Of a DNA stretch of 46,730 nt, positions 871 to 38,570 are shown one piece after another (the first letter of the stretch is position 1; each line of letters begins with the position of its first letter). Under the pieces are notes generated by a model, which saw only the letters and a program-made list of their open reading frames with translations, searched no databases and was not told where the DNA came from. Source of the stretch: Candidatus Beckwithbacteria bacterium. GTDB taxonomy: Bacteria > Patescibacteriota > Microgenomatia > UBA1400 > UBA1449. Position numbers and translations under genes: made by a program. Where the stretch lies: positions 1 to 46,730 of the forward strand of contig JAAZOH010000015.1 of the NCBI GenBank assembly GCA_012797845.1. The letters run 5' to 3'.

Positions 871-1404
871 TCATATCGGATATGAATCAAGCATGTTTTT
901 CTCTATCAAATCTCTAATATATTCACTTCTGGAAATTCTTTGTTTTTTAGTTACAAAATCCAAAAAAGTATCAATTTTAGGAGAAATAAAAAAAGTAAAT
1001 CGTCTATAAAGATTATGTTTTATCTCACTAAAAGCCCAATCCAAAACCTCTCCTAAATCTTCCTGACTGTATTGAGAAACTACCATTTTATCCCGAGCTG
1101 TTAATAATCGCCTGTCAGTTTCATTTTCATACAAAAAAATGATTGGTTTTGACCGTTCAATCAACCGTCCCAAATCATAGCTGACAGCTATCGAAACTGG
1201 CATACTTCCTTCTAAAACAGCCAATTCACAACATTGCATATGGTGATCTTTTTGACTAAAACAAACTGAACAAGAGGTATTTTGGTCAAGCAACTGTTTT
1301 TTTCCCAAAATAGTATGACCAGATTTTTCAATGAGATTAATGAGCTTTAGTGCCCGCTCCTTACCAGCCAAGCCTGAGAGCGAAGCTGAAAAGTAGACTT
1401 TCAT
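871..1404 (-). CDS. NDT-like domain plus RHH fusion, divergent paralog 1
   Basis: A 177-residue member of the paralogous family found at 3123-6053. Residues 1-130 resemble the nucleoside 2-deoxyribosyltransferase fold: opening strand MKVYFSASLS and a strand-helix around D77 followed by SKPII. Residues 135-171 form a ribbon-helix-helix module (RFTFF strand, then SRSEYIRDLIEKNM). In the family the residue aligned with the NDT catalytic Glu sits in a G-x-E-L/I motif; here it is Asp77 in S-Y-D-L. It also has a unique Cys/His cluster (C45, C48, H54, H55, C58, C59) that could bind metal. The gene is transcribed away from the TrmB pair and shares its control region. It has no obvious Shine-Dalgarno. 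A 19-nt palindrome (869-887) overlaps its stop codon. Enzymatic activity is uncertain; a ligand-responsive DNA-binding role is inferred. Confidence 0.75.
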   Translation of the reverse strand: MKVYFSASLSGLAGKERALKLINLIEKSGHTILGKKQLLDQNTSCSVCFSQKDHHMQCCELAVLEGSMPVSIAVSYDLGRLIERSKPIIFLYENETDRRLLTARDKMVVSQYSQEDLGEVLDWAFSEIKHNLYRRFTFFISPKIDTFLDFVTKKQRISRSEYIRDLIEKNMLDSYPI

Positions 1405-1489
1405 ATTACATATGTATGATATATATCTTCCTCATATCGGTCTAGAAACAACAATTTTTATACTTTAAAAATAGTTTGTATCTTAAAAT

Positions 1490-1519
1490 TTGTATCGGAA
1501 TAATCCGATATTGTATAAT
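1490..1519 (+). promoter_or_regulatory. Promoter of the TrmB pair with palindromic operator
   Basis: The -35 TTGTAT (1490-1495) and -10 TATAAT (1514-1519) are 18 bp apart and lie 20 bp before the ATG at 1539. Between them is the perfect inverted repeat TATCGGA-ATAA-TCCGATA (1493-1510). TrmB-type regulators of Thermococcales bind palindromes of the form TATCAC-N5-GTGATA, so the TATC...GATA frame here fits an operator of this family. Autoregulation by the downstream protein is the simplest inference. A related half site ATATCGG occurs at 1434-1440 on the side of the divergent gene. Confidence 0.6.
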
Positions 1520-1538
1520 CACACTTATATCAACAAAT

Positions 1539-2339
1539 ATGGATGGTATTACTCAGGCTTTACAAAAGCTCAATATCTCTCCCAACGAAACCAGAATCTA
1601 CTTAGCTCTTCTTAAAAATGGTCCAAGTTCTATCACTGAACTGGCTAAATTAGTGTGCATTCCCCGAACCACAACTCATGAAAACAGTGAAAAATTGATC
1701 GAAAAAGGCTTAGTCAGTCGAACAATCATTGGAGCTAGGAAAAAATTGATTGCTGAAAAACCGACTAAATTAGAACTGCTACTAGCTGAAGAAAAAGTAA
1801 AGCTCAAATCCCAAAGTCAGGATATTAGCAGTATTGAAAAAAGCTTGCCTAAACTAATTTCATCTATTCAAAATTCAGTTTCAGATTTAGAAAAAAATAC
1901 TGACTTTGATGTCAAAATTTATAAAGGCAAAAGCCAAATTCAAAAAGTATATTTGGATATCTTAAAAGCTATTGAAATTAGAGCTTATTGTGATTCTAAG
2001 GGAATAAGTGAGTTTTTTCCAGAAAACTATGACTTATTTACCAAAGCGCACAAAGAAAACAAACAAATGATTATGTGGGAAATTATAATTCCTCCAATTG
2101 ATTTTTATAAAATCTACCTCAGCAAACTTGATATGAAAAGATATAAATACAAACTTGCTCCCAAAAACCTTAAACTACCACTTTCAATTGATTATTTGAT
2201 TTATGATCAAAAAGTTGCAGTTATAAATCTAGTTGAAAACCCAACTTGTATTGTTATAAACAATCAACCTTTTTATCAAAACGCTAAATCTTTATTTGAG
2301 TTTATTTGGCAGATGATTCCAGAGTCAACACTATTTTAA
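1539..2339 (+). CDS. TrmB-family transcriptional regulator 1
   Basis: A 266-residue regulator. Residues about 5-75 form a winged helix-turn-helix with recognition helix around IPRTTTHENSEKL, typical of TrmB/sugar-sensing regulators. Residues about 85-130 are a charged coiled coil. Residues about 135-266 match the TrmB C-terminal regulatory domain (DFDVKIYKGKSQIQ opening). An open frame extends further upstream, but the start at ATG 1539 aligns with the paralog that follows and lies properly downstream of the -10 box. It is the first gene of a two-gene operon with 2345-3130. TrmB proteins are common in archaea and occur in some bacteria. The ligand is unknown, and the context suggests it controls the NDT-RHH genes. 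Confidence 0.85.
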   Translation: MDGITQALQKLNISPNETRIYLALLKNGPSSITELAKLVCIPRTTTHENSEKLIEKGLVSRTIIGARKKLIAEKPTKLELLLAEEKVKLKSQSQDISSIEKSLPKLISSIQNSVSDLEKNTDFDVKIYKGKSQIQKVYLDILKAIEIRAYCDSKGISEFFPENYDLFTKAHKENKQMIMWEIIIPPIDFYKIYLSKLDMKRYKYKLAPKNLKLPLSIDYLIYDQKVAVINLVENPTCIVINNQPFYQNAKSLFEFIWQMIPESTLF

Positions 2340-2344
2340 TAAAT

Positions 2345-3130
2345 ATGCAAACTCTAAAAAAACTTGGTTTATCTGACACTGAAATTATTCTCTATCAAAC
2401 CTTGTTCAAAACTGGCCCCATATCAATAACCCAGCTTGCCAAAAAATGTCATATACCCCGCACCACCACATACGAAAATATTGAAAAACTAATTCATAAA
2501 AGATTAGTGAATTACCTTGTAAAAGAGTCTAATAAAAAAGTATTAGCTAAACACCCGATACAATTTGAGAAATTGTTGTTTGACCAAAAAATTCAGCTTA
2601 AAAACCAAACTAAAAAATTAGCTGATTTAGAAAAAGAGCTTCCCAGTATTATTAGCTCCTTATCAGCTCAAACCTTTGATTATGAATCTGATTTTGAAGT
2701 CAAAGTTTTTGAAGGCAAAGATAGTATTCAAAGATCAATTTATCAGGAAGTTTTGAATTCAGAGCTAGTTTTTTCATTCTCAAATTTAGAAAAATATTAT
2801 GAAGTTTTTCCTGATAGTGTTTCTAATTGGGTAGATTCTTATATCACTAATTCGACAAGACAGTACTGGGACATTACGCTAAATACTAATTTTGCAAAAG
2901 AACTAGAGCCGATTATGAAACAAGTCAAACGTTATCATTATAAATTTTTACCACAAAGCAATGCTTTGCTTGCTGGTAATTACGCTGATTATCTGTTTTA
3001 TAATTATAAAATTGCTCTAATAGAACTCGAACCGCGGAAAGTTAGAGCAATCTTAATTTATTCTAAACATCTCTACGATGGTTTTGTAAATTTGCATAAA
3101 ACTATGTGGGAGTTGATACCTACTATTTAG
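2345..3130 (+). CDS. TrmB-family transcriptional regulator 2
   Basis: A 261-residue paralog of the preceding regulator with the same layout: winged helix-turn-helix at about 1-70 (recognition helix IPRTTTYENIEKL), coiled coil at about 80-125 and a TrmB regulatory domain beginning DFEVKVFEGKDSIQ. Start ATG 2345 is five bases after the stop of TrmB 1 and aligns with it; the longer frame upstream overlaps the preceding gene and is rejected. Its 3' end overlaps by 8 bp the 3' end of the convergent NDT-RHH gene at 3123, so expression of the two operons may interfere. The helix-turn-helix is closely similar to that of TrmB 1, so both may recognise related operators or heterodimerise. Confidence 0.85.
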   Translation: MQTLKKLGLSDTEIILYQTLFKTGPISITQLAKKCHIPRTTTYENIEKLIHKRLVNYLVKESNKKVLAKHPIQFEKLLFDQKIQLKNQTKKLADLEKELPSIISSLSAQTFDYESDFEVKVFEGKDSIQRSIYQEVLNSELVFSFSNLEKYYEVFPDSVSNWVDSYITNSTRQYWDITLNTNFAKELEPIMKQVKRYHYKFLPQSNALLAGNYADYLFYNYKIALIELEPRKVRAILIYSKHLYDGFVNLHKTMWELIPTI

Positions 3131-3683
3131 TTTTTTTCATATCTTTTTCAATTAATTCTCGAATATACTCAGACCGAGATTTTCCTTTTTTAACTACTGC
3201 TTCGAGATGGGTAATAATTTTTGGTGGCATTAACATGGTAAATCTTTTATCAATTTGATTTTTTACTTCCTCAATTGCCAATTTCAAAGTTATTTCTAAA
3301 TCTTTGATATCATGAATATCATACCCATAAATTTGTAATTTCTGCATTACCACTCCTTTTAGAGTAAATGGAACAATTCCATGATTTTTTTCATATAACA
3401 CAATGACAGGCTTATTATTTTCCAAGGCCAAATTGAGCTCAAAACCAATACTAACTTCTTCTATGGTCACATCAAATACAATAAAGTCAGCTTTCTTGAT
3501 CCAATTTTGCATTTTTACAAAATATTGCCGAGATTGCCTTGGAGTTTCCGCTTTAATATCTGTAACTTCCCGTTTTAAAAGATGGTATGTAATTGCTTTG
3601 TGGCCTAATTTTTCTAATACATTAAAAATGTTTTTGTAAGCCTGTTTATCTCCATACAATGAAGCAAACATATGAAATTTCAT
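3123..3683 (-). CDS. NDT-like domain plus RHH fusion, paralog 2
   Basis: A 186-residue protein. The N-terminal Rossmann-like NDT domain (about 1-140) has opening strand MKFHMFASLYG, the acidic strand AD66-FIVFD71 and the G80-F-E82-L motif followed by NKPV. Glu82 aligns with the nucleophilic Glu of nucleoside 2-deoxyribosyltransferases. The C-terminal module (147-182) reads as a ribbon-helix-helix: RFTMLMPPKI strand, then SRSEYIRELIEKDM. It is the last gene of a three-gene run whose members overlap by 4 bp (ATGA), indicating translational coupling with 3680-4231. Its end overlaps the convergent TrmB 2 gene. The domain order is the reverse of most RHH regulators, which carry the RHH at the N-terminus. 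Substrate unknown. Confidence 0.8.
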   Translation of the reverse strand: MKFHMFASLYGDKQAYKNIFNVLEKLGHKAITYHLLKREVTDIKAETPRQSRQYFVKMQNWIKKADFIVFDVTIEEVSIGFELNLALENNKPVIVLYEKNHGIVPFTLKGVVMQKLQIYGYDIHDIKDLEITLKLAIEEVKNQIDKRFTMLMPPKIITHLEAVVKKGKSRSEYIRELIEKDMKKTK

Positions 3684-4231
3684 TTCTCTTCCATTTTTTC
3701 TCTAATTAAAGATCGAATATATTCAGACCGATTGATTCCCTTTTGTCCCAACTGATTGAGATAGCTATTAATATCTGCGGGCAAAACCATAGTGAACCGA
3801 GTGTCAACTTGCTCGCTGGCATATTTCAATGCAATGTTAAGAGTTTGTTTGAGCGTATTTTTAGCATAAGCTAAAACTTGAAGCCGATCAAAGTTTATGC
3901 CTTTTAGCACTGTATGGGCTCCACTTTTGGGATTTGGCTGATAGATAACAACTACTGGTTTGCCATATTGCAAAGCAATAGCTATCTCAAAACCAGCTCC
4001 AAACCCTGGATATGTTACATCGACTACCACAATATCACTTTTTCTAATCCAGTTTTGCATTTTCTGGACATACAGTTCTGTTTCTGTTTTTGGTTCTTGA
4101 TGAACATAATTTAAATCCCTAGTCGCTGAATGATTAGTAATAACTTTATAACCCAAATCTTTAATAGTTTTAATGATGCTTTTGTAATACTGTTGATCAC
4201 CTTCTAGTGGACCAATAAAATGAACTTTCAT
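3680..4231 (-). CDS. NDT-like domain plus RHH fusion, paralog 3
   Basis: A 183-residue protein of the same family. Opening strand is MKVHFIGPLEG, the acidic strand SD66-IVVVD71, and Glu82 in G-F-E-I before GKPVVV is at the NDT catalytic position. The RHH module occupies 145-183 (RFTMVLPADI, then NRSEYIRSLIREKM). The gene overlaps both neighbours by 4 bp, so the three genes from 4788 to 3123 are probably translated as one coupled unit. Of the family it looks closest to a canonical NDT core, with a P-L-E-G loop after strand 1 that could contact a base or phosphate. That reading is inference. Confidence 0.8.
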   Translation of the reverse strand: MKVHFIGPLEGDQQYYKSIIKTIKDLGYKVITNHSATRDLNYVHQEPKTETELYVQKMQNWIRKSDIVVVDVTYPGFGAGFEIAIALQYGKPVVVIYQPNPKSGAHTVLKGINFDRLQVLAYAKNTLKQTLNIALKYASEQVDTRFTMVLPADINSYLNQLGQKGINRSEYIRSLIREKMEEK

Positions 4232-4788
4232 ATCTTTTCTTCTTTCATATCCTTGATTATTAGCTGACGAATATATTCTGAACGAGACACTCCTTTTTGG
4301 TTCATCTTATCTAAATATCCTTTTATACTTGGGGTTAATATTAATGTAAACCTAGACTCTAACCACTCTTGTGCATAGACTAAAGCTTCTTTTAAAACAC
4401 TGTCTATATTTTCTAAAGAATATTCTAAAAATTGTAATTTTGATTCAGAATCAGTTGCTCCTGATAAAAAGATTGGATTATAAGCTTTTGTATGAAGCGC
4501 AATCACTGGTTTCCCATTAATAAGGGCATATTGCAATAATTGGCCTATTGCTAAAGAAGATACTGTTATATCAAAAACTGCTACATCTGATACTAGAAGA
4601 CTATTTATTACTGTTTGATAATGCTTTGACCATTCGGATTTAGGGAGATTGAAAAATGATTTATTAAAATTAATAATGAACTGACAAGTATGTTCATGGC
4701 CTAGTTTTTTAATTAACTCTGCAATTTTCTGATAATTTAATTTATATATATTTATCTTTGAAGGAGAGGCAAGAAAAAATACTTTCAT
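4228..4788 (-). CDS. NDT-like domain plus RHH fusion, paralog 4 (catalytic Glu lost)
   Basis: A 186-residue paralog starting MKVFFLASPSK. The fold signature is intact (SD68-VAVFD73, then GKPVIALH), but the residue aligned with the catalytic Glu is Leu84 in G-Q-L-L. Transferase chemistry is therefore unlikely, and a ligand-sensing or structural role is possible. The RHH module is at 146-182 (RFTLILTPSI, then SRSEYIRQLIIKDM). ATG 4788 is preferred over an upstream in-frame TTG (4794) because it aligns with the other family members. The start lies only a few bases beyond a terminator-like hairpin (4793-4819), so the usual ribosome-binding region is in or next to the stem. It overlaps the next gene by 4 bp. 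Confidence 0.78.
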   Translation of the reverse strand: MKVFFLASPSKINIYKLNYQKIAELIKKLGHEHTCQFIINFNKSFFNLPKSEWSKHYQTVINSLLVSDVAVFDITVSSLAIGQLLQYALINGKPVIALHTKAYNPIFLSGATDSESKLQFLEYSLENIDSVLKEALVYAQEWLESRFTLILTPSIKGYLDKMNQKGVSRSEYIRQLIIKDMKEEKI

Positions 4789-4792
4789 ACAC

Positions 4793-4819
4793 AAAACCCC
4801 AGCTAGCAGCTGGGTTTTT
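4793..4819 (-). terminator. Terminator or attenuator inside the NDT-RHH array
   Basis: CCCAGCT (4798-4804), loop AGC and AGCTGGG (4808-4814) form a perfect 7-bp stem. On the minus strand it is followed by G and four T, on the plus strand by five T. It lies between the second and third gene of the minus-strand array and ends only about nine bases before the ATG at 4788. It could terminate the recR/radical SAM/NDT transcript, or act as an attenuator that hides the translation start. Confidence 0.6.
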
Positions 4820-4846
4820 AAATTATATTAGACATAAATATTCCTA

Positions 4847-5428
4847 TTATTTTTCTTTTTCGAATTCTCTATCTATCCTCATATCTTCTTCAATTAACCT
4901 GCGTAAGTAGACTGCTCTTGGCATTTTTTTCTTTTTAGCAATCCAATCAAGATAGTTAACAATTTTTGGCGAAACGAAAAAATTAAATCGCACATCCATT
5001 TGGTTAGTAGCTTCCTCTAGAGCATATTTTAACTCTTTTTCTAAATCATGTTCTTCATAAGGTACTAAAAATAAACGGTCATTTTTAATACCCTCTAAAA
5101 AAGCCGGCTCGCGATCTTCTCTATAAAGAGCTACTACTGGCTTGGATTTTTCTAAGGCAGTTGTTAATTCATGGCCAACATTAGCTGTTGAAGGATATGA
5201 TATTTCTACAACCACTACATCAGCTAAATTGATACTTTTCATGGCCACGGTATACCATTTTTTTCGTTCTTTCGGATCTCTGACTTTGTTAGCATATAGT
5301 TTAATATCATCTAAAATATCTTCGCCATAAAGCGTATGGCCTAATTTTTTGATAGTCTGACAAATTTTTTTATAATTTTCTTCTAGATCCTTACCTTGAG
5401 AGATTGAGGCGGTGAAGTAGATTTTCAT
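4847..5428 (-). CDS. NDT-like domain plus RHH fusion, paralog 5
   Basis: A 193-residue member. The NDT-like core opens MKIYFTASISQG, has AD70-VVVVE and Glu87 in N-V-G-H-E-L before SKPVVALY. The RHH module at 147-183 (RFNFFVSPKI, then PRAVYLRRLIEEDM) differs from the SRSEYIR type of the other group and is nearly identical to that of the adjacent paralog at 5475. A charged tail of about ten residues follows. It is separated by 46 bp from the upstream paralog and by a terminator-like hairpin from the downstream one. No strong Shine-Dalgarno is visible. It probably shares a transcript with the radical SAM gene. Confidence 0.8.
   Translation of the reverse strand: MKIYFTASISQGKDLEENYKKICQTIKKLGHTLYGEDILDDIKLYANKVRDPKERKKWYTVAMKSINLADVVVVEISYPSTANVGHELTTALEKSKPVVALYREDREPAFLEGIKNDRLFLVPYEEHDLEKELKYALEEATNQMDVRFNFFVSPKIVNYLDWIAKKKKMPRAVYLRRLIEEDMRIDREFEKEK
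4925..4990. repeat. 66-bp direct repeat, copy 1 (RHH-coding)
   Basis: This 66-bp stretch encodes part of the RHH module of the 4847 paralog and is identical base for base to 5553-5618. The flanking parts of the two genes are much more diverged. It points to recent gene conversion or module exchange confined to the DNA-binding part. Confidence 0.85.
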
Positions 5429-5474
5429 AGTCTATTTGTTTGTACAATATGCTACAGCAAATGGGAAGAGATTA

Positions 5475-6053
5475 CTATTCTTCATTTAAAAACTCTTTAT
5501 TTTTATTCATATCTTCGTCTATTAATCTACGTAAGTAGACTGCCCGCGGCACTTTTTTCTTTTTAGCAATCCAATCAAGATAGTTAACAATTTTTGGCGA
5601 AACGAAAAAATTAAATCGTACATCTGATTGTGATTTTGCTTCTTCAAGTGCAAATTTTAATTCTCTTCTCAAAGTATTCATTTGATATCGAACCATGATT
5701 AGTTTCTCATCATTGCTTCCCTCTAATAATCTTGGTGTCTTAGCCTGCTCTTCAACTAGAACAATAGTTGGTTTATTTTTTTCTAATGCAAGTGAAATTT
5801 CATGCCCTAAGTTTGTAGAAGATGCCGATGATTCAATAATTACTATGTCACTACTATTAATAAGTTTTACAATTTTTTTATAAAACAAGACAACTTCTTC
5901 ATGAGATTTTAACTTTATAGTTTCTGCCGTATCCTTTAAAACATGATCGCTAATAATTTCAACCCCTATCTCTTCAAGTGTTTTGTATATAAACTTATAA
6001 TTATTTATTAAATTTTTCTTATCGGAGATTGACGCAGAAAAATAAATTTTCAT
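5475..6053 (-). CDS. NDT-like domain plus RHH fusion, paralog 6
   Basis: A 192-residue member, first of the tandem array in transcription order, 15 bp after the radical SAM gene. The core opens MKIYFSASISDKK, has SD69-IVIIE, and Glu85 in G-H-E-I before NKPTIVL. The RHH is at 146-182 (RFNFFVSPKI, then PRAVYLRRLIDEDM). Like its neighbour at 4847 it carries the P-R-A-V-Y-L-R-R recognition helix. No clear Shine-Dalgarno precedes the ATG at 6053, so reinitiation after the radical SAM gene is plausible. Confidence 0.8.
   Translation of the reverse strand: MKIYFSASISDKKNLINNYKFIYKTLEEIGVEIISDHVLKDTAETIKLKSHEEVVLFYKKIVKLINSSDIVIIESSASSTNLGHEISLALEKNKPTIVLVEEQAKTPRLLEGSNDEKLIMVRYQMNTLRRELKFALEEAKSQSDVRFNFFVSPKIVNYLDWIAKKKKVPRAVYLRRLIDEDMNKNKEFLNEE
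5553..5618. repeat. 66-bp direct repeat, copy 2 (RHH-coding)
   Basis: Identical to 4925-4990. It lies in the RHH-coding part of the 5475 paralog. Confidence 0.85.
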
Positions 6054-6068: not shown

Positions 6069-7004
6069 TTAATAATAAGTATCTGAAAAATGTTTTGCAT
6101 AATAATCTTGTTTAAAAGGAAATTTTTTCCATAAGCTAGCAAAATTATCATTTAATAAATTTCCAATATTATATACTAAGTTTGATTTTTCTAAAAAAGG
6201 CGAAGCAATAAGATTTCCATTGGGTAATATGATTAATGATTTTCTTAAGCCATTTTCCCAATTAACTAATTTAATACATAATTCACTATTTTTAGAATTC
6301 AGATTAGGTTTATATTGTCCAAGAACTTGATTAATTGTGTTGATAGCAATTTTCTCTGTGTCAAATATTTCTTTTGCTCTACCTTTATTAAACAATGAAT
6401 AAAAAGTGATTTTATTAACTGCTATTTCTTTTCCAATTTCTATTACATCAACTAGTTCGGAGAGATTACTTTGCATCACAGTACAGACAAGTCCTACTGG
6501 TACTGAATGTTTAGCGCAAAGTTTAATATTTTGTATTACTTTTTTATATGCCCCATTTACACCAACAAAGTTATCATGAAATTTCTCTTTACCATGTAAA
6601 CTAATTCTTAGATTAGCAACTCTACCCTTTAACTTTTTAATAATTTCTTCATTTAGTAAATATCCATTAGTAGATAAGCTAATTATCATTTTCTTATCAG
6701 ATATAATTTGAATAATTTCAGATAAATCTTTCCTCATCAAAGGTTCACCTCCACTTATACTAATTCGTTTTATATCATTGTCTGCTAAATCGTCAATGAT
6801 TTTAACAATATTTTTAGTACTCATATCATTCATCGATCCTACTTCGCTACAGTGTTTACATCTGAAATTACATGCTCGAGTTACTTCAAGACAAACCGAT
6901 AAAGGAATTGGAGATTTTCTACAATATTCTCCAATTAAATATTCATCTAATTGGGAATCATAGTAGATATTCTTTCGAAGAAATTTTAAATTTTGTTTTT
7001 TCAT
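6069..7004 (-). CDS. Radical SAM protein with SPASM-like but Cys-poor C-terminus
   Basis: A 311-residue radical SAM enzyme. The cluster motif is C45-NFR-C49-KH-C52, and GGEP (85-88) is the SAM-binding motif. The TNGYLL and RISLHG segments mark later strands of the partial barrel. The C-terminal part has the outline of a SPASM/Twitch domain (ILPNGN followed by IGNLLND), but the cysteines that bind auxiliary clusters in SPASM enzymes are replaced (A-S-P-F where P-C is usual). Auxiliary clusters are therefore probably lost. It starts three bases after the recR stop, with a GGAGGG ribosome-binding site inside the recR end, and is followed after 15 bp by the NDT-RHH array. Substrate unknown; resemblance to the PqqE/heme-modification group is general only. 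Confidence 0.8.
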   Translation of the reverse strand: MKKQNLKFLRKNIYYDSQLDEYLIGEYCRKSPIPLSVCLEVTRACNFRCKHCSEVGSMNDMSTKNIVKIIDDLADNDIKRISISGGEPLMRKDLSEIIQIISDKKMIISLSTNGYLLNEEIIKKLKGRVANLRISLHGKEKFHDNFVGVNGAYKKVIQNIKLCAKHSVPVGLVCTVMQSNLSELVDVIEIGKEIAVNKITFYSLFNKGRAKEIFDTEKIAINTINQVLGQYKPNLNSKNSELCIKLVNWENGLRKSLIILPNGNLIASPFLEKSNLVYNIGNLLNDNFASLWKKFPFKQDYYAKHFSDTYY

Positions 7005-7007
7005 TAA

Positions 7008-7613
7008 TTAGTATTCCCTCCGTCCTTCAAAAGCCCGCTGTAAGGTAATTTCATCCGCGTACTCAATATCTGCTCCGGTTGGCAATCCCCGACCAATTCT
7101 GGTGACTTGAACATCTAGCTTATGTTTTTGTAAAAGGCGCTGCATATAAAGAGCTGTAGCTTCACCTTCCATGGTTGGATTAGTAGCAATGATAATTTCT
7201 TTAACTTTAATGCCATTATTTAGCCTAGGCAGTAGATCGTGAATATGAAGCTGATCAGGTCCAATATTGTCTAGAGGATTAATAACTCCATGAAGCACAT
7301 GATATACGCCATTAAAGGTCCCACTACGTTCAATAGCCAAAATATCGAGAGGCTGTTCAACAATGCAAATCTGAGCATGGTCGCGATTTTGATCAGCACA
7401 AATCGGACAAGGATCACTTTCGCTAATATTGGCACAAATTGAACATACTTTGGTCTGTTTTTTAAGTGAACTTATCGCCTCGCCAAATTCATCCAAATAT
7501 TCTTGAGGAACATGAAGTAGATAGTACGTTAGCCGCTGGGCTGACTTAGGGCCAATACCTGGTAAGCGCTGAAAAGCGTTAGTGAGTCGTTCAATGCTCT
7601 TGGGAGTTTTCAT
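7008..7613 (-). CDS. recR: Recombination mediator protein RecR
   Basis: A 201-residue protein, the usual length. Residues 10-35 carry the helix-hairpin-helix (RLPGIGPKSAQRL), C57/C60/C69/C72 the zinc finger, and the Toprim domain begins at 81 (ICIVEQPLD; TNPTMEGEATA at 145-155). RecR works with RecF/RecO to load RecA at gaps in DNA. It lies in the classical dnaX-ybaB-recR neighbourhood, here interrupted by a PfkB kinase, and its end contains the ribosome-binding site of the radical SAM gene. Confidence 0.96.
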   Translation of the reverse strand: MKTPKSIERLTNAFQRLPGIGPKSAQRLTYYLLHVPQEYLDEFGEAISSLKKQTKVCSICANISESDPCPICADQNRDHAQICIVEQPLDILAIERSGTFNGVYHVLHGVINPLDNIGPDQLHIHDLLPRLNNGIKVKEIIIATNPTMEGEATALYMQRLLQKHKLDVQVTRIGRGLPTGADIEYADEITLQRAFEGRREY

Positions 7614-8714: not shown

Positions 8715-9008
8715 CTATTGCCCCATTGCTTTTAGCATGCCAGATAAACCTCCACTCATTTCTTGCATTTTCTTAGCCGCCACTTCCTGAGATTTTTTCA
8801 AGGCTTTATTTATCGTATCAACAAGACGCTGGTTATTGGCTCCGTCAATTTGAAGTTCTTGGATTTTTTGATCACCTGAAACCACAATTCTGATTCCACT
8901 TTCTTCAATTTCAATTTTTTCAGCAGCTAAGGCTTTCTGGATTTGCATAGCCTGTTGGCGCATCTTCATTAGTTCACCACCTTGTTTAACTGTGTCAAAA
9001 ATACCCAT
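8715..9008 (-). CDS. YbaB/EbfC family nucleoid-associated protein
   Basis: A 97-residue protein starting MGIFDTVKQGGELMKMRQQA, with a long N-terminal helix, a central beta-hairpin (IRIVVSGDQKIQELQID) and a C-terminal helix ending in a Gly/Met-rich tail. These proteins are DNA-binding dimers, and the family is characteristically encoded between dnaX and recR, as here. Confidence 0.92.
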   Translation of the reverse strand: MGIFDTVKQGGELMKMRQQAMQIQKALAAEKIEIEESGIRIVVSGDQKIQELQIDGANNQRLVDTINKALKKSQEVAAKKMQEMSGGLSGMLKAMGQ

Positions 9009-9079: not shown

Positions 9080-10603
9080 TTATGTAAATATTTCTTCTGC
9101 CATTTTAGCTAAATTCTGGTCTTTTTTCTCGTCCAGTTCCTGTTTTTCTTGTTTTTCTCCCAAAACATATACTATTCTTGGTTTACTCTGATAAAGCTTA
9201 ATAAAAGCTTCTTCCACAATTTGCAAACTTTTATCAGTTTCCAATCTACCCTTATGAAATTCATAAAAAACTTTAATCTGGACTTCGTTGCCACTAACCT
9301 GGTGTGGCCTGGCACTATGCAACAGCGCTTCAACTGAGTGATTCTGAGGTTTAATGATAGTTAGTAATGTTTCCCACTTACCAACCAGATCATCCAACGA
9401 AAAATTACAATTAACTGCTTTAGTAGTTGCTGGTTCTTGTTTTGATGAGGCTGTCTGTTTTATAGCCACTACTACCTGTTCTTCTGAATTTTGGTCTTTG
9501 ATTTCTGACTTATGTTCTGGCTTTTGCATTTTAATTTCCAACTCTTCTTCAATTTTTAGTTTTTCGCTTTTAGTTTTTAGTTCTTGATGACACCATTCCG
9601 CTACTACTAACTCCAAAGGTAAAGTTGGGACCAAAGCATTCTTAAGTTGCCAACCAGCTCGGAGAAGTAAAGTGATCAATTCCTGTAGTTCTGCTTCAGA
9701 GAATAAAGATTTTTTACCTGAATTAACACCGTAATTTGCCAACAATGATTCTTTTAATTCTATTAGTAAACTTCGGATAACATTCTCCCAATCAGTTCCC
9801 TGATTCTCCTGTTGGGCAATCCAGTCAAAGGCAGAATTAGCTTGACGCTTTTGTAAAAACTGTAAAAATTCACTACTGCTAACTTGAGGAAAAACAGCTA
9901 TTAAAGTCTGCTCATCAATTTTCTTCCCAGCAAAAGACAGTTGCTCCAGCATTTTAGTACTATCGCGAAACCCGCCATCAGCTTTGACAATGATTTTATC
10001 AAGCACTTCATCAGAGATTTGTAGCTCCTCCCCTATAATCACCCGTTGTAACGACCGCTTTAGTTCATCATGGCTGGCTTTTTGAAACTGGACATGAAAG
10101 GATCGAGAAATGATGGTTTCCGGTAGTTTTTGCGGTTCGGTGGTCGCTAAGATAAAAACCACATGCTCCGGCGGTTCTTCTAAAGTTTTTAAAAGCGCAT
10201 TAAAAGCTTCTCTGGTCAGCATGTGTACTTCATCAATCACATACACTTTTTTAGCTAAATTTAAGGGGGCTTGAGCAATGGTCTCGCGTAAAGCTCTAAT
10301 ATCATCAATGCCACGGTTACTGGCTCCATCAATTTCAACTACATCAACAGCCATACCCTTGGTAATTGAGGTACAAGCATCGCACTGATTACAAGGTTCG
10401 ATGCTTCCTTTTTTCTTATTGGTACAATTAATAGATTTGGCTACAATCCGAGCTGCTGAAGTCTTACCTAAACCTCTAGCTCCGGAAAACAAGAAGGCAT
10501 GGGGAATGCTGTCTGATTTTAAAACATCACCTAATTGTTTGCGAACGGTTGCTAAATCCAGTTCGTCAATGGTTTGCGGTCGGTATTTAAGATAAAACGT
10601 CAT
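9080..10603 (-). CDS. dnaX: DNA polymerase III subunit gamma/tau
   Basis: A 507-residue clamp-loader ATPase. Walker A is GARGLGKTS (41-49), zinc cysteines are C60/C71/C74/C77, the Walker B region is IDEVHML (123-129), sensor 1 is ATTEP and the arginine-finger loop is S-R-S (166-168). A Lys/Glu-rich low-complexity linker at about 345-395 precedes a C-terminal tau-like domain (VGKWETLLTIIKPQNHSVEA). The domain layout suggests a tau-length product; no clear slippery frameshift signal was identified. It is the head of the dnaX-ybaB-pfkB-recR run. Confidence 0.96.
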   Translation of the reverse strand: MTFYLKYRPQTIDELDLATVRKQLGDVLKSDSIPHAFLFSGARGLGKTSAARIVAKSINCTNKKKGSIEPCNQCDACTSITKGMAVDVVEIDGASNRGIDDIRALRETIAQAPLNLAKKVYVIDEVHMLTREAFNALLKTLEEPPEHVVFILATTEPQKLPETIISRSFHVQFQKASHDELKRSLQRVIIGEELQISDEVLDKIIVKADGGFRDSTKMLEQLSFAGKKIDEQTLIAVFPQVSSSEFLQFLQKRQANSAFDWIAQQENQGTDWENVIRSLLIELKESLLANYGVNSGKKSLFSEAELQELITLLLRAGWQLKNALVPTLPLELVVAEWCHQELKTKSEKLKIEEELEIKMQKPEHKSEIKDQNSEEQVVVAIKQTASSKQEPATTKAVNCNFSLDDLVGKWETLLTIIKPQNHSVEALLHSARPHQVSGNEVQIKVFYEFHKGRLETDKSLQIVEEAFIKLYQSKPRIVYVLGEKQEKQELDEKKDQNLAKMAEEIFT

Positions 10604-36096: not shown

Positions 36097-37053
36097 ATGT
36101 CCAGACCACGCCACCCTGAATATCAATATCTCGATCTATTAGACGACATTATGAAACATGGAGTTGAGAAGATTAGTCACTCAACTGGCATGGGTTTGCG
36201 CAGTGTTTTTGGCCGCCAAATTCGTTTTGATCTATCTAAAGGTTTTCCACTTTTAACCACTAAAAAAGTCTATTTAAAAGGGATTATTCATGAACTGCTT
36301 TGGTTTATTTCTGGCAGTTCTAATATTACCTACATGACTCGGAACAATGTCCATATTTGGGATGATTGGGCGTATAAAAATTACAAAGTGGCTATGGAAC
36401 TAGGTAAGGTCAAAAAAATGGAGATGCCGGAATTTGTCCAAAAAATAGTTGATGATGATGCTTTTGCTAAAAAATGGGGCGAGATTGGCCCAGTTTATGG
36501 TGCTCAATGGCGGCGTTGGCCAACTGGCGACGGTCGACATATTGATCAACTCAAATGGGCTATTGATAAAATTAAAGAAAAGCCTCATAAAAAGCACTAC
36601 ATCATTTCAGCCTGGAATGCAGCTTATATCTATGAAATGGCTAAAACCCGCGAAGATTCTATGGTAATTGCCCCCTGTCATACGTTTTTCCATATCAATA
36701 TTGATGAGAGCAACCATAAGCTATCTTTACAAATGTATCAGCGCAGCGCTGACTCTTTTTTGGGAGTACCATTTAATATTGCCAGTTATGCTCTACTAAC
36801 TATGATGCTGGCTCAAGTTACTGGTTATAAGCCCGGAGATTTTGTCCATACCTTTGGCGATATTCATGTCTACCACAATCATTTTAAACAAGTTCGGCAA
36901 CAGTTGAAGCGTAAACCTCGCAAACTACCCATTATGAGAATCAACCCTAAAATCAAAGATATTGATAAATTTACCTACGAAGATTTTGAAATTGTGGGCT
37001 ATAACCCTCACCCAGCTATCAAAGGCGAGATTACCGTGGTAGGTGGGTTTTAA
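36097..37053 (+). CDS. thyA: Thymidylate synthase (ThyA)
   Basis: A 318-residue enzyme converting dUMP to dTMP with methylene-tetrahydrofolate. Catalytic Cys194 is in APCHTFF, and QRSADSFLGVPFNIASY (Asn227) and GDIHVYHNH complete the active site. It is longer than the 264-residue E. coli form because of an insert around 98-125, as in some other ThyA proteins. The usual Q-F after the catalytic loop is H-I. The gene meets a second TS-family gene tail to tail with only two bases between stops. No Shine-Dalgarno is visible. Confidence 0.95.
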   Translation: MSRPRHPEYQYLDLLDDIMKHGVEKISHSTGMGLRSVFGRQIRFDLSKGFPLLTTKKVYLKGIIHELLWFISGSSNITYMTRNNVHIWDDWAYKNYKVAMELGKVKKMEMPEFVQKIVDDDAFAKKWGEIGPVYGAQWRRWPTGDGRHIDQLKWAIDKIKEKPHKKHYIISAWNAAYIYEMAKTREDSMVIAPCHTFFHINIDESNHKLSLQMYQRSADSFLGVPFNIASYALLTMMLAQVTGYKPGDFVHTFGDIHVYHNHFKQVRQQLKRKPRKLPIMRINPKIKDIDKFTYEDFEIVGYNPHPAIKGEITVVGGF

Positions 37054-37055
37054 TT

Positions 37056-38570
37056 TTACAAATCCGCTGTATTTGGTGCTGGATCCTGGTGATATGGCAA
37101 ATTATGTTGTAAACAATACTGCGCCCGCTGGAGTTCAGTTCCAATATACATGGCATGATCAGCCATAGAAATATAGCCCCAATCACTAATTTTCCATACT
37201 AGCTCAAGGGCTTTTTTGCCTTGCCAGCTTTTAATAGCCGGTCCCCCATCTGGCTCATATAAGGTAACGTTGATCAGCTTAGCTTTTTGATCAATTTCAA
37301 TGACGACATTTCCTTTGGGATCAAAAGTAAAATGGACAGCGGGTGTAAAGCCCAGTTCTTGCTCATAAAAATCACTCAAAATCTCTTCGACCATCTTAAA
37401 GTCGTCACTATACATATGAGCCGAATGGGTAATGAGCGTGAGTTTGCCTAGTTTGTAGCCACCGCTTTGGGCAATTTCTTCCTGCAATTTACGCAAACCA
37501 AAAGCATTGCGCGGCCAGCCATGAACCATATCTTGAGAGCGAAAATGAGCGGTGAGGAAAAATTTATGATCCTGGACACTACCTAAAATCATCACCAAAC
37601 ATGGTGTATCACCAGTGTCTGAATGTGACCAGTCCAACTCCACATCCGTGGTTAAAGCAATCATTTTTTTAGAATCCGGGCGTTTTTTGAGAAGCTCTTT
37701 GATTTTATCAATTTGATTGACCCCAAAATGCTCCATCATCCGATGACCGTAGTTGTAAGCTGTGCCTGGGATTTTACGAGCTGAAGTCATCTCTGGCAGA
37801 TAAGCAATCAGCTCTTCCTTGCTAAACGGTAAGTAAGCCGGAAAATAAGGCTCGCTCATGTCTTCATCTGACACTACGGCTACCATATTTAAAACTTCCC
37901 GCAGCTGGTTTTGCTGAGCATAGCGAGTGTGTTTATAACGGCCATATTTGTAAATTTCGTTTAAAACTTTTAGCCAAGTTTGAGCGACAGTTTTACCTTC
38001 TACTCGAAAACCAACTTGTTCTGATGGTAAAACTTGAACTTTAGGCTCACTGGGTGGGAAAATTTGCGCCTTAGCAGCAAAGGGTGGTTTTTGTTTGATT
38101 TGTTTAAGCTTGGTAATCAATTCTTTGGCAGTTTTACCTCTAAAATCAATCACTTCTACGCTTTTGCGAAAAAGTGCAATCGCTTCGTTGCTAATTTCTA
38201 CTTCGATCTCCCCTCGTCCATTTTTGATTTTGCGCTTACTATCCACTCCCTCTTTCATAAATTGCAGCAAGGCATGACCCGATAAAGACAGCTCAGCCCC
38301 CCAGAGGATAATAGTCCGAATTCGAGGATTAGCTAGTACGTTACGGATAATAGCATTGACTCCCTGACCAGAGTAAAGATTACCAATCACACAATAAAGT
38401 TTGGGGTTTTTGATAAGTTGCTCAACTACCTTTCGCTCCGTCCATAACGTACACACTGCCACCGATGAATTAATATCGCCTTTGACTAAAATGTCTTTAT
38501 ATAAAATTGGCCAGTGGGATAAATCCACTGGCAATGGGGTGGTTTTGATTTTGGATTGAGATTCAAACAT
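37056..38570 (-). CDS. Thymidylate-synthase-family protein fused to MtrA-like (DUF4346-type) domain
   Basis: A 504-residue two-domain protein. Residues about 20-150 resemble the DUF4346/tetrahydromethanopterin S-methyltransferase subunit A type (VAVCTLW, CVIGNLYSGQGVNAIIRNV, TIILWGAELS...SGHAL). Residues about 195-480 follow the thymidylate synthase core: Cys324 in D-T-P-C, HFRSQD (343-347) and GWPRNAFGL (Asn355), then SAHMYSDD for the His-x-Tyr motif. This resembles archaeal-type TS relatives rather than ThyA. It may use another one-carbon donor or act on another pyrimidine nucleotide, for instance as a dCMP/dUMP hydroxymethylase. Its start overlaps the end of the kinase-like gene by 8 bp. 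Confidence 0.78.
   Translation of the reverse strand: MFESQSKIKTTPLPVDLSHWPILYKDILVKGDINSSVAVCTLWTERKVVEQLIKNPKLYCVIGNLYSGQGVNAIIRNVLANPRIRTIILWGAELSLSGHALLQFMKEGVDSKRKIKNGRGEIEVEISNEAIALFRKSVEVIDFRGKTAKELITKLKQIKQKPPFAAKAQIFPPSEPKVQVLPSEQVGFRVEGKTVAQTWLKVLNEIYKYGRYKHTRYAQQNQLREVLNMVAVVSDEDMSEPYFPAYLPFSKEELIAYLPEMTSARKIPGTAYNYGHRMMEHFGVNQIDKIKELLKKRPDSKKMIALTTDVELDWSHSDTGDTPCLVMILGSVQDHKFFLTAHFRSQDMVHGWPRNAFGLRKLQEEIAQSGGYKLGKLTLITHSAHMYSDDFKMVEEILSDFYEQELGFTPAVHFTFDPKGNVVIEIDQKAKLINVTLYEPDGGPAIKSWQGKKALELVWKISDWGYISMADHAMYIGTELQRAQYCLQHNLPYHQDPAPNTADL

Follow-up and report, generated by a model that had tools for sequence, protein, structure and literature searches.

What are six related genes, each coupling an enzyme fold to what appears to be a DNA-binding tail, doing side by side in a member of the Patescibacteria (candidate phyla radiation, CPR)? 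They lie between positions 871 and 6053 of contig JAAZOH010000015.1 of a Candidatus Beckwithbacteria genome (1.28 Mb in 46 contigs). The complete contig (contig 15, 46,730 bases) was analyzed and is called the window here. All six are intact open reading frames (ORFs) of 177 to 193 amino acids (aa) on the minus strand, numbered copies 1 to 6 by position, and the other copies share 21 to 32% identity with copy 1. A tblastn search of the whole genome with copy 2 recovered exactly these six (E values from 1e-14 to 1e-120) and no additional full-length copy, in agreement with the number of homologs proposed by an earlier model reading of the letters (the sequence-only reading). We consider, with a probability of about 0.6, that they are one-component, nucleotide-responsive regulators of the ribbon-helix-helix (RHH) type built on the fold of DNPH1 (nucleoside 5'-monophosphate N-hydrolase), some of them perhaps still hydrolyzing their ligand. 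We favor regulators because conservation peaks in the RHH, the catalytic nucleophile has been lost repeatedly and the other pocket residues are mostly kept. Nucleoside- or nucleotide-responsive DNA-binding proteins had already been one of the options of the sequence-only reading, and this option now appears the best supported.

The N-terminal domain is closest to DNPH1, also known as Rcl, and clearly nearer to it than to the nucleoside 2-deoxyribosyltransferases (NDTs). In a search of PDB sequences, copy 3 matched rat Rcl/DNPH1 at 8e-15 and NDT at 0.14, while a profile built from 28 family members matched DNPH1 at 5.3e-22 and NDT chains at 2e-4 to 0.15. The Pfam NDT family (PF05014) was matched by 24 of these 28 members at E values of up to 0.1 (3e-8 at best), and all six array copies score below its cut-off. 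When the AlphaFold (AF2) model of copy 3 (mean predicted local distance difference test score, pLDDT, of 89.6) was searched with Foldseek, DNPH1 made up 50 of 50 among the matches listed. The label “NDT-like” used at first is therefore correct at the superfamily level, DNPH1-like being the closer term. The distinction matters because, of the two, only DNPH1 has the phosphate pocket in which S98 and S128' of the human enzyme hold the phosphate of a nucleoside 5'-monophosphate; this pocket is absent from NDTs (PMC10603095).

Profile comparison, and for the core also the structure model, confirm the domain order read at first, with an N-terminal core of the NDT superfamily followed by a C-terminal RHH. 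Aligned to seven CopG-type RHHs from CPR genomes, the family tail gave an hhalign probability of 93.8%, with the strand and both helices aligned, versus 0.7% for a winged-helix negative control. One member from another genome (G020; L118/L112), the tree partner of copy 4, passes the Pfam RHH_1 cut-off (29.7 versus 20.5 bits); other members give weak RHH_3 or RHH_1 matches, and the individual Pfam RHH matches of the array copies are under the cut-off. PHROG matches of the tails are to CopG-like and Arc-like repressors. The AF2 models place an extended segment at residues 143 to 151, followed by helices at 152 to 163 and 168 to 182. Among 84 members from loci selected by an RHH pattern, the strand has its Arg and Phe in every case (84/84) and its Asn in nearly all (79/84).

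Two other RHH proteins of the same order were found along the way (L114, at G008:C9:54109-54213, and L117, at G020:C20:23002-23115), in which an N-terminal RHH above the Pfam RHH_1 cut-off is joined to an enzyme resembling NDP-sugar nucleotidyltransferases. A further protein of 184 aa (L069:2454-3008) matches the family profile in its RHH part only, and possibly carries the same tail on another, or a diverged, N-terminal domain.

The two halves of these proteins have diverged to very different degrees. In the 28-member set, which was gathered with copy 3 and is independent of the RHH motif, mean pairwise identity is 0.55 for the RHH versus 0.31 for the N-terminal domain, and the RHH is the more similar half in 356 of 378 pairs, as it is in all 15 pairs of array copies. 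The values for the 84 members (0.54 and 0.29) are similar, in a set biased to conserved RHHs by the way its loci were picked. The nucleophile, Glu E104 (residues are in human numbering with rat Rcl as reference, and E104 calls come from one MAFFT alignment), is absent from 59 of the 106 full-length members. Over the same 106, G102 is retained in 102, D80 in 96, S98 in 93, Y24 in 61, E104 in 47 and H56 in 29. Members without E104 still have S28 (83%), S98 (90%) and D80 (92%); R30 is found in 58% of them versus 2% of the E104-positive members, and H56 in 8% versus 51%. In the family as a whole, the E55 position is mostly Asp. The catalytic triad Y24-D80-E104 is complete in only 22 of the 84 members and, within the array, only in copies 5 and 6. 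At least 11 changes in the state of the nucleophile were counted on a quick tree with many weak forks, whose supported branches alone force only three. One supported clade of 39 members (99) is wholly devoid of E104 and keeps the RHH. Judged by these residue patterns, catalysis is dispensable for the family and the RHH is not. Since E104 is lost while the RHH is kept, regulation is favored over metabolism as the shared function.

The same residues bear on the view that these proteins are mainly enzymes, i.e., DNPH1-type sanitizers hydrolyzing damaged or modified deoxynucleoside monophosphates, with an RHH that serves autoregulation or tethers them to DNA or the replisome near dnaX and recR. 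The homology to DNPH1 would fit, as would the full or near-full catalytic sets of copies 5 and 6, the triad in a minority of relatives and the neighborhood of recR and dnaX (and, at a single locus, of a dITPase-like Ham1 protein). However, a family of sanitizers that has lost its nucleophile in more than half of its members, including an entire clade that keeps the RHH, and whose enzymatic half is the less conserved one, seems unlikely to us.

The individual copies illustrate how far the pocket has drifted, and the region that contains them is laid out as follows.

871-1404, minus strand: copy 1, 177 aa, DNPH1-like domain plus RHH (RHH at about 892-1008).
1476-2339 (likely start ATG 1539), plus strand: TrmB-family winged helix-turn-helix regulator 1 (Pfam TrmB, 4e-12), divergent from copy 1.
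2306-3130 (likely start ATG 2345), plus strand: TrmB-family winged helix-turn-helix regulator 2 (Pfam TrmB, 6e-10).
3123-3683, minus strand: copy 2, 186 aa (RHH at about 3138-3251).
3680-4231, minus strand: copy 3, 183 aa (RHH at about 3689-3805).
4228-4794, minus strand: copy 4, 188 aa (RHH at about 4246-4359).
4798-4814, strand not applicable: bidirectional terminator-like hairpin, a consensus match only.
4847-5428, minus strand: copy 5, 193 aa (RHH at 4880-4996, RFNFFVSP...PRAVYLRRLIEEDM).
5475-6053, minus strand: copy 6, 192 aa (RHH at 5508-5624).
6069-7004, minus strand: radical SAM protein with a weak SPASM-like tail (Pfam Radical_SAM, 1.4e-23), 15 nucleotides (nt) upstream of copy 6.
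7008-7613, minus strand: recR, part of the upstream group conserved in 16 loci.
8715-9008: ybaB, in the upstream group with recR and dnaX.
9080-10603: dnaX, in the upstream group with recR and ybaB.

Copy 6 is the sole array copy to retain Y24, H56, D80, S98 and E104 (with Asp at E55) and is the best candidate for an active hydrolase. Copy 5 has kept Y24, D80, S98 and E104, with H56 replaced by Asp. Copies 2 and 3 both have His at Y24 and retain E104; S98 has become Glu in copy 2, which also keeps D80 and H56, and Gly in copy 3. The nucleophile is gone in copy 4 (SLAIGQLL), and the most degenerate pocket is that of copy 1 (S98 to Val, G102 to Ser, E104 to Asp and D80 to Glu). The G-x-E motif before KP, which had been described as a common trait of the six, is found in four copies and replaced by GQL in copy 4 and SYD in copy 1. 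We considered a metal site (CSVC...HHMQCC) for copy 1 and rejected it, as it is not conserved in the two relatives of this copy.

Copy 3 overlaps copies 2 and 4 by 4 nt at either end, making a run 4-3-2 that the hairpin at 4798-4814 divides from copies 6 and 5; the latter are preceded by the radical SAM, recR, pfkB-like, ybaB and dnaX genes, all co-directional. The two TrmB genes, described in the sequence-only reading as flanking the array, actually sit inside it, on the plus strand between copy 1 and copies 2 to 6, and represent two of the four TrmB matches in the genome. Upstream of the first of them, at 1490-1515, the sequence has an inverted repeat, TATCGGAATAATCCGATA, with ATATCGG half-sites nearby, possibly a candidate operator for TrmB or the RHH proteins.

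The sequence-only reading spoke of an expanded family, but a simple local expansion seems a misleading description of the array. Six full-length copies is the highest count among the ca. 430 genomes searched, but the only local pair is that of copies 2 and 3 (95). Copy 4 groups with the G020 gene (95) and copy 1 with members from two further genomes (L122/L135, from G026 and G214; 97), all on supported branches, while copies 5 and 6 sit on weakly placed forks near genes from other genomes. By this tree, the array appears to bring together old, separate subfamilies rather than to reflect a recent burst.

The fusion recurs across Patescibacteria, chiefly in Microgenomates. Full-length members were found in 25 of 53 genomes of the same order, and in a phylum-wide sample of 380 genomes, 89 had some profile match, ca. 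40 of them reaching into the RHH; the remaining ones mostly carry stand-alone DNPH1/NDT domains. A search of other CPR genomes, proposed with the sequence-only reading, has thus turned up the same architecture well beyond the window. A scan for the RHH-region peptide pattern through 84,980 species returned 64 loci from Patescibacteria or from metagenome-assembled genomes titled only “bacterium,” with the sole exception of one contig labeled Woesearchaeota that is probably misbinned. We found no published description of a DNPH1-like domain fused to an RHH in the open-access literature, a scope outside which most subscription journals lie.

DNPH1-like domains occur in other settings too. The genome of the window has a stand-alone DNPH1/NDT-like ORF with no RHH (G000:C38:75202-75444, in a frame of 127 aa), and in many relatives the domain is fused to a thymidylate kinase in proteins of ca. 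370 aa (L031:841-1944, L034 and L035). These fused domains also lack the nucleophile Glu (GTALLM or GTAFLM), which suggests a pseudoenzyme acting as a nucleotide sensor on dTMP kinase. Elsewhere in the window, a protein encoded at 37056-38570 combines MtrA-like, thymidylate synthase and pterin-binding DUF4346 domains and adjoins a standard ThyA (36097-37053), so that two types of thymidylate synthase are adjacent.

Genomic neighborhoods were compared across the loci. At 16 loci recR lies two genes or fewer from the family, and nowhere in these loci is it more than four genes away (p = 4e-10), in the recurring order ybeY-dnaX-ybaB-recR-(variable gene)-family gene. In relatives the variable slot is occupied by methyltransferases or P-loop kinases, and in the window by the radical SAM gene. 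The Shapirobacteria and Roizmanbacteria clades have different fixed contexts (Mur ligase/Ddl and pth), and the association with recR is therefore partly due to shared descent. A class I methyltransferase is the commonest coupled gene directly upstream (at least 14 of 59 scanned), and methyltransferases are adjacent in 22 loci, i.e., 22 of 175 neighbor slots versus 6 of 1081 distant ones (p = 8e-15), a count that includes one duplicate contig and, like the other neighbor statistics, treats related loci as independent. The partners singled out by the sequence-only reading fared less well. Linkage to radical SAM genes is modest (5 loci, p = 0.006), and that to TrmB is weak (3 of ca. 84 loci, p = 0.04), for which reason TrmB was rejected as a general partner of the system.

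The neighborhoods also speak to the second option of the sequence-only reading, a conflict or defense module in which an NDT-fold effector carries an antitoxin-like RHH; a sensor of phage nucleotide chemistry may be added to it. Its attraction lies in the superfamily relations of the fold (NDT, SLOG and TIR-like, with weak E values), in the variable neighbors and several paralogs, and in the adjoining radical SAM gene, which matches the PADLOC pVip models at 3.7e-21. Viperin was, however, rejected for this protein, since heme-synthesis SPASM families (AhbC/NirJ-type) score better (2e-37, far below their cut-offs). PADLOC matches of the six proteins themselves range from 0.007 to 0.05 or are missing, no toxin partner and no recurrent small partner gene were seen at the family loci, and searches of 50,697 phage and 72,556 plasmid records turned up no family member. 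With contexts that are stable and of a housekeeping kind, often behind ybeY-dnaX-ybaB-recR, we regard a conflict module as very improbable.

Several observations do weigh against nucleotide-responsive regulators. S98 is gone in copies 1, 2 and 3, which may therefore bind a non-nucleotide ligand, and the equivalent of S128' is unaligned in 102 of 106 members. Neighborhoods differ between clades, and no single regulated pathway emerges from them. Palindrome and 7-mer scans of the upstream regions gave no family-wide operator motif, and the element TGAGACAA, which may be a promoter, is present only in a few Shapirobacteria upstream regions. Finally, Foldseek found no fold match for the isolated RHH monomer model. 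This last search is uninformative because the RHH sheet forms only in the dimer, and profile-profile comparison with a negative control was used instead. An element TTTTTGAGACAAT lies 14 to 15 nt before family starts at three loci (L059:1977, L067:7921 and L068:6926, two of them named Shapirobacteria) and is a possible leaderless promoter, operator or clade-specific site.

Some of these points would suit regulators with a repurposed pocket, reading a non-nucleotide ligand (for example a metabolite produced by a neighboring methyltransferase, kinase or radical SAM enzyme) or none at all. The residues S98 and S128' are absent in some copies, and the slot upstream is taken most often by methyltransferases and otherwise by radical SAM or P-loop kinase genes. 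Yet D80, S98 and G102 are strongly conserved throughout the family, even in members without the nucleophile, and we find a repurposed pocket less probable than sanitizing enzymes, if somewhat more so than a conflict module.

Returning to nucleotide-responsive regulators, we draw on the families of the two domains for dimerization, ligand class, DNA binding, direction of control and targets. Each protein would act as a homodimer. Its DNPH1/Rcl-fold domain would accommodate a small ligand bearing a phosphate, most probably a (deoxy)nucleoside 5'-monophosphate, plain or modified, and the RHH strands of the two subunits would pair to contact DNA. An occupied pocket would shift the RHH halves relative to each other and thereby change the affinity for DNA. 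Paralogs with near-identical RHHs and varied pockets would read different ligands. Members with the catalytic set (copy 6, possibly also 5, 2 and 3) might hydrolyze the ligand as well, ending their own signal as “trigger enzymes,” a role that PutA has for proline, while those without the nucleophile (copy 4 and probably copy 1) would serve as sensors only. As targets, the operon itself and the neighboring dnaX-ybaB-recR or methyltransferase genes seem likely.

Much more tentatively, the family might be a Patescibacteria-wide set of nucleotide-sensing factors, with a DNPH1-type domain that is often a pseudoenzyme, coupling the pool of (modified) deoxynucleotides to dnaX-ybaB-recR and to small-molecule methyltransferases, the paralogs reading different nucleotides through one DNA code. 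Patescibacteria are believed to rely on salvage for their nucleotides, and to our knowledge regulation in these microbes is almost unexplored. A protein with a nucleotide pocket and an RHH in about half of the sampled genomes of one order would offer a sensor of nucleotide supply that is concrete and open to testing. In addition, the catalytic Glu has been lost again and again with the DNA-binding half kept, which makes the family a clean example from nature of an enzyme turning into a transcription factor.

Among known systems, the principle of an RHH fused to a substrate-sensing enzyme is shared with PutA, an autogenous repressor that combines an RHH with proline dehydrogenase (PMC5293562). 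Here, RHH and substrate-binding enzyme fold are found in one chain in 106 full-length members. PutA differs in its N-terminal RHH and unrelated enzyme, and we know of no widespread loss of catalysis in it. With the Arc, MetJ and CopG repressors, the array tails have in common the strand-helix-helix of ca. 40 residues and a second helix of the type R-S/A-x-Y-hydrophobic-R, and the strand QFNLR of Arc resembles their RFNFF; in contrast, the array RHH is C-terminal and carried on a metabolic-enzyme fold. The TrmB family, with two genes within the array, likewise consists of one-component regulators, but its fold is unrelated. NDTs (PF05014) belong to the same superfamily, lack the phosphate pocket (PMC10603095) and are more distant than DNPH1, and we found no evidence of transferase activity. 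DNPH1/Rcl, and also MilB (a hydrolase of CMP and hydroxymethyl-CMP), share the fold and sequence of the N-terminal domain, with the D80 and S98 positions mostly retained and the full catalytic set in a minority. Unlike them, the array family has no recognizable S128' helical extension, has lost the nucleophile in more than half of its members and has added a C-terminal RHH.

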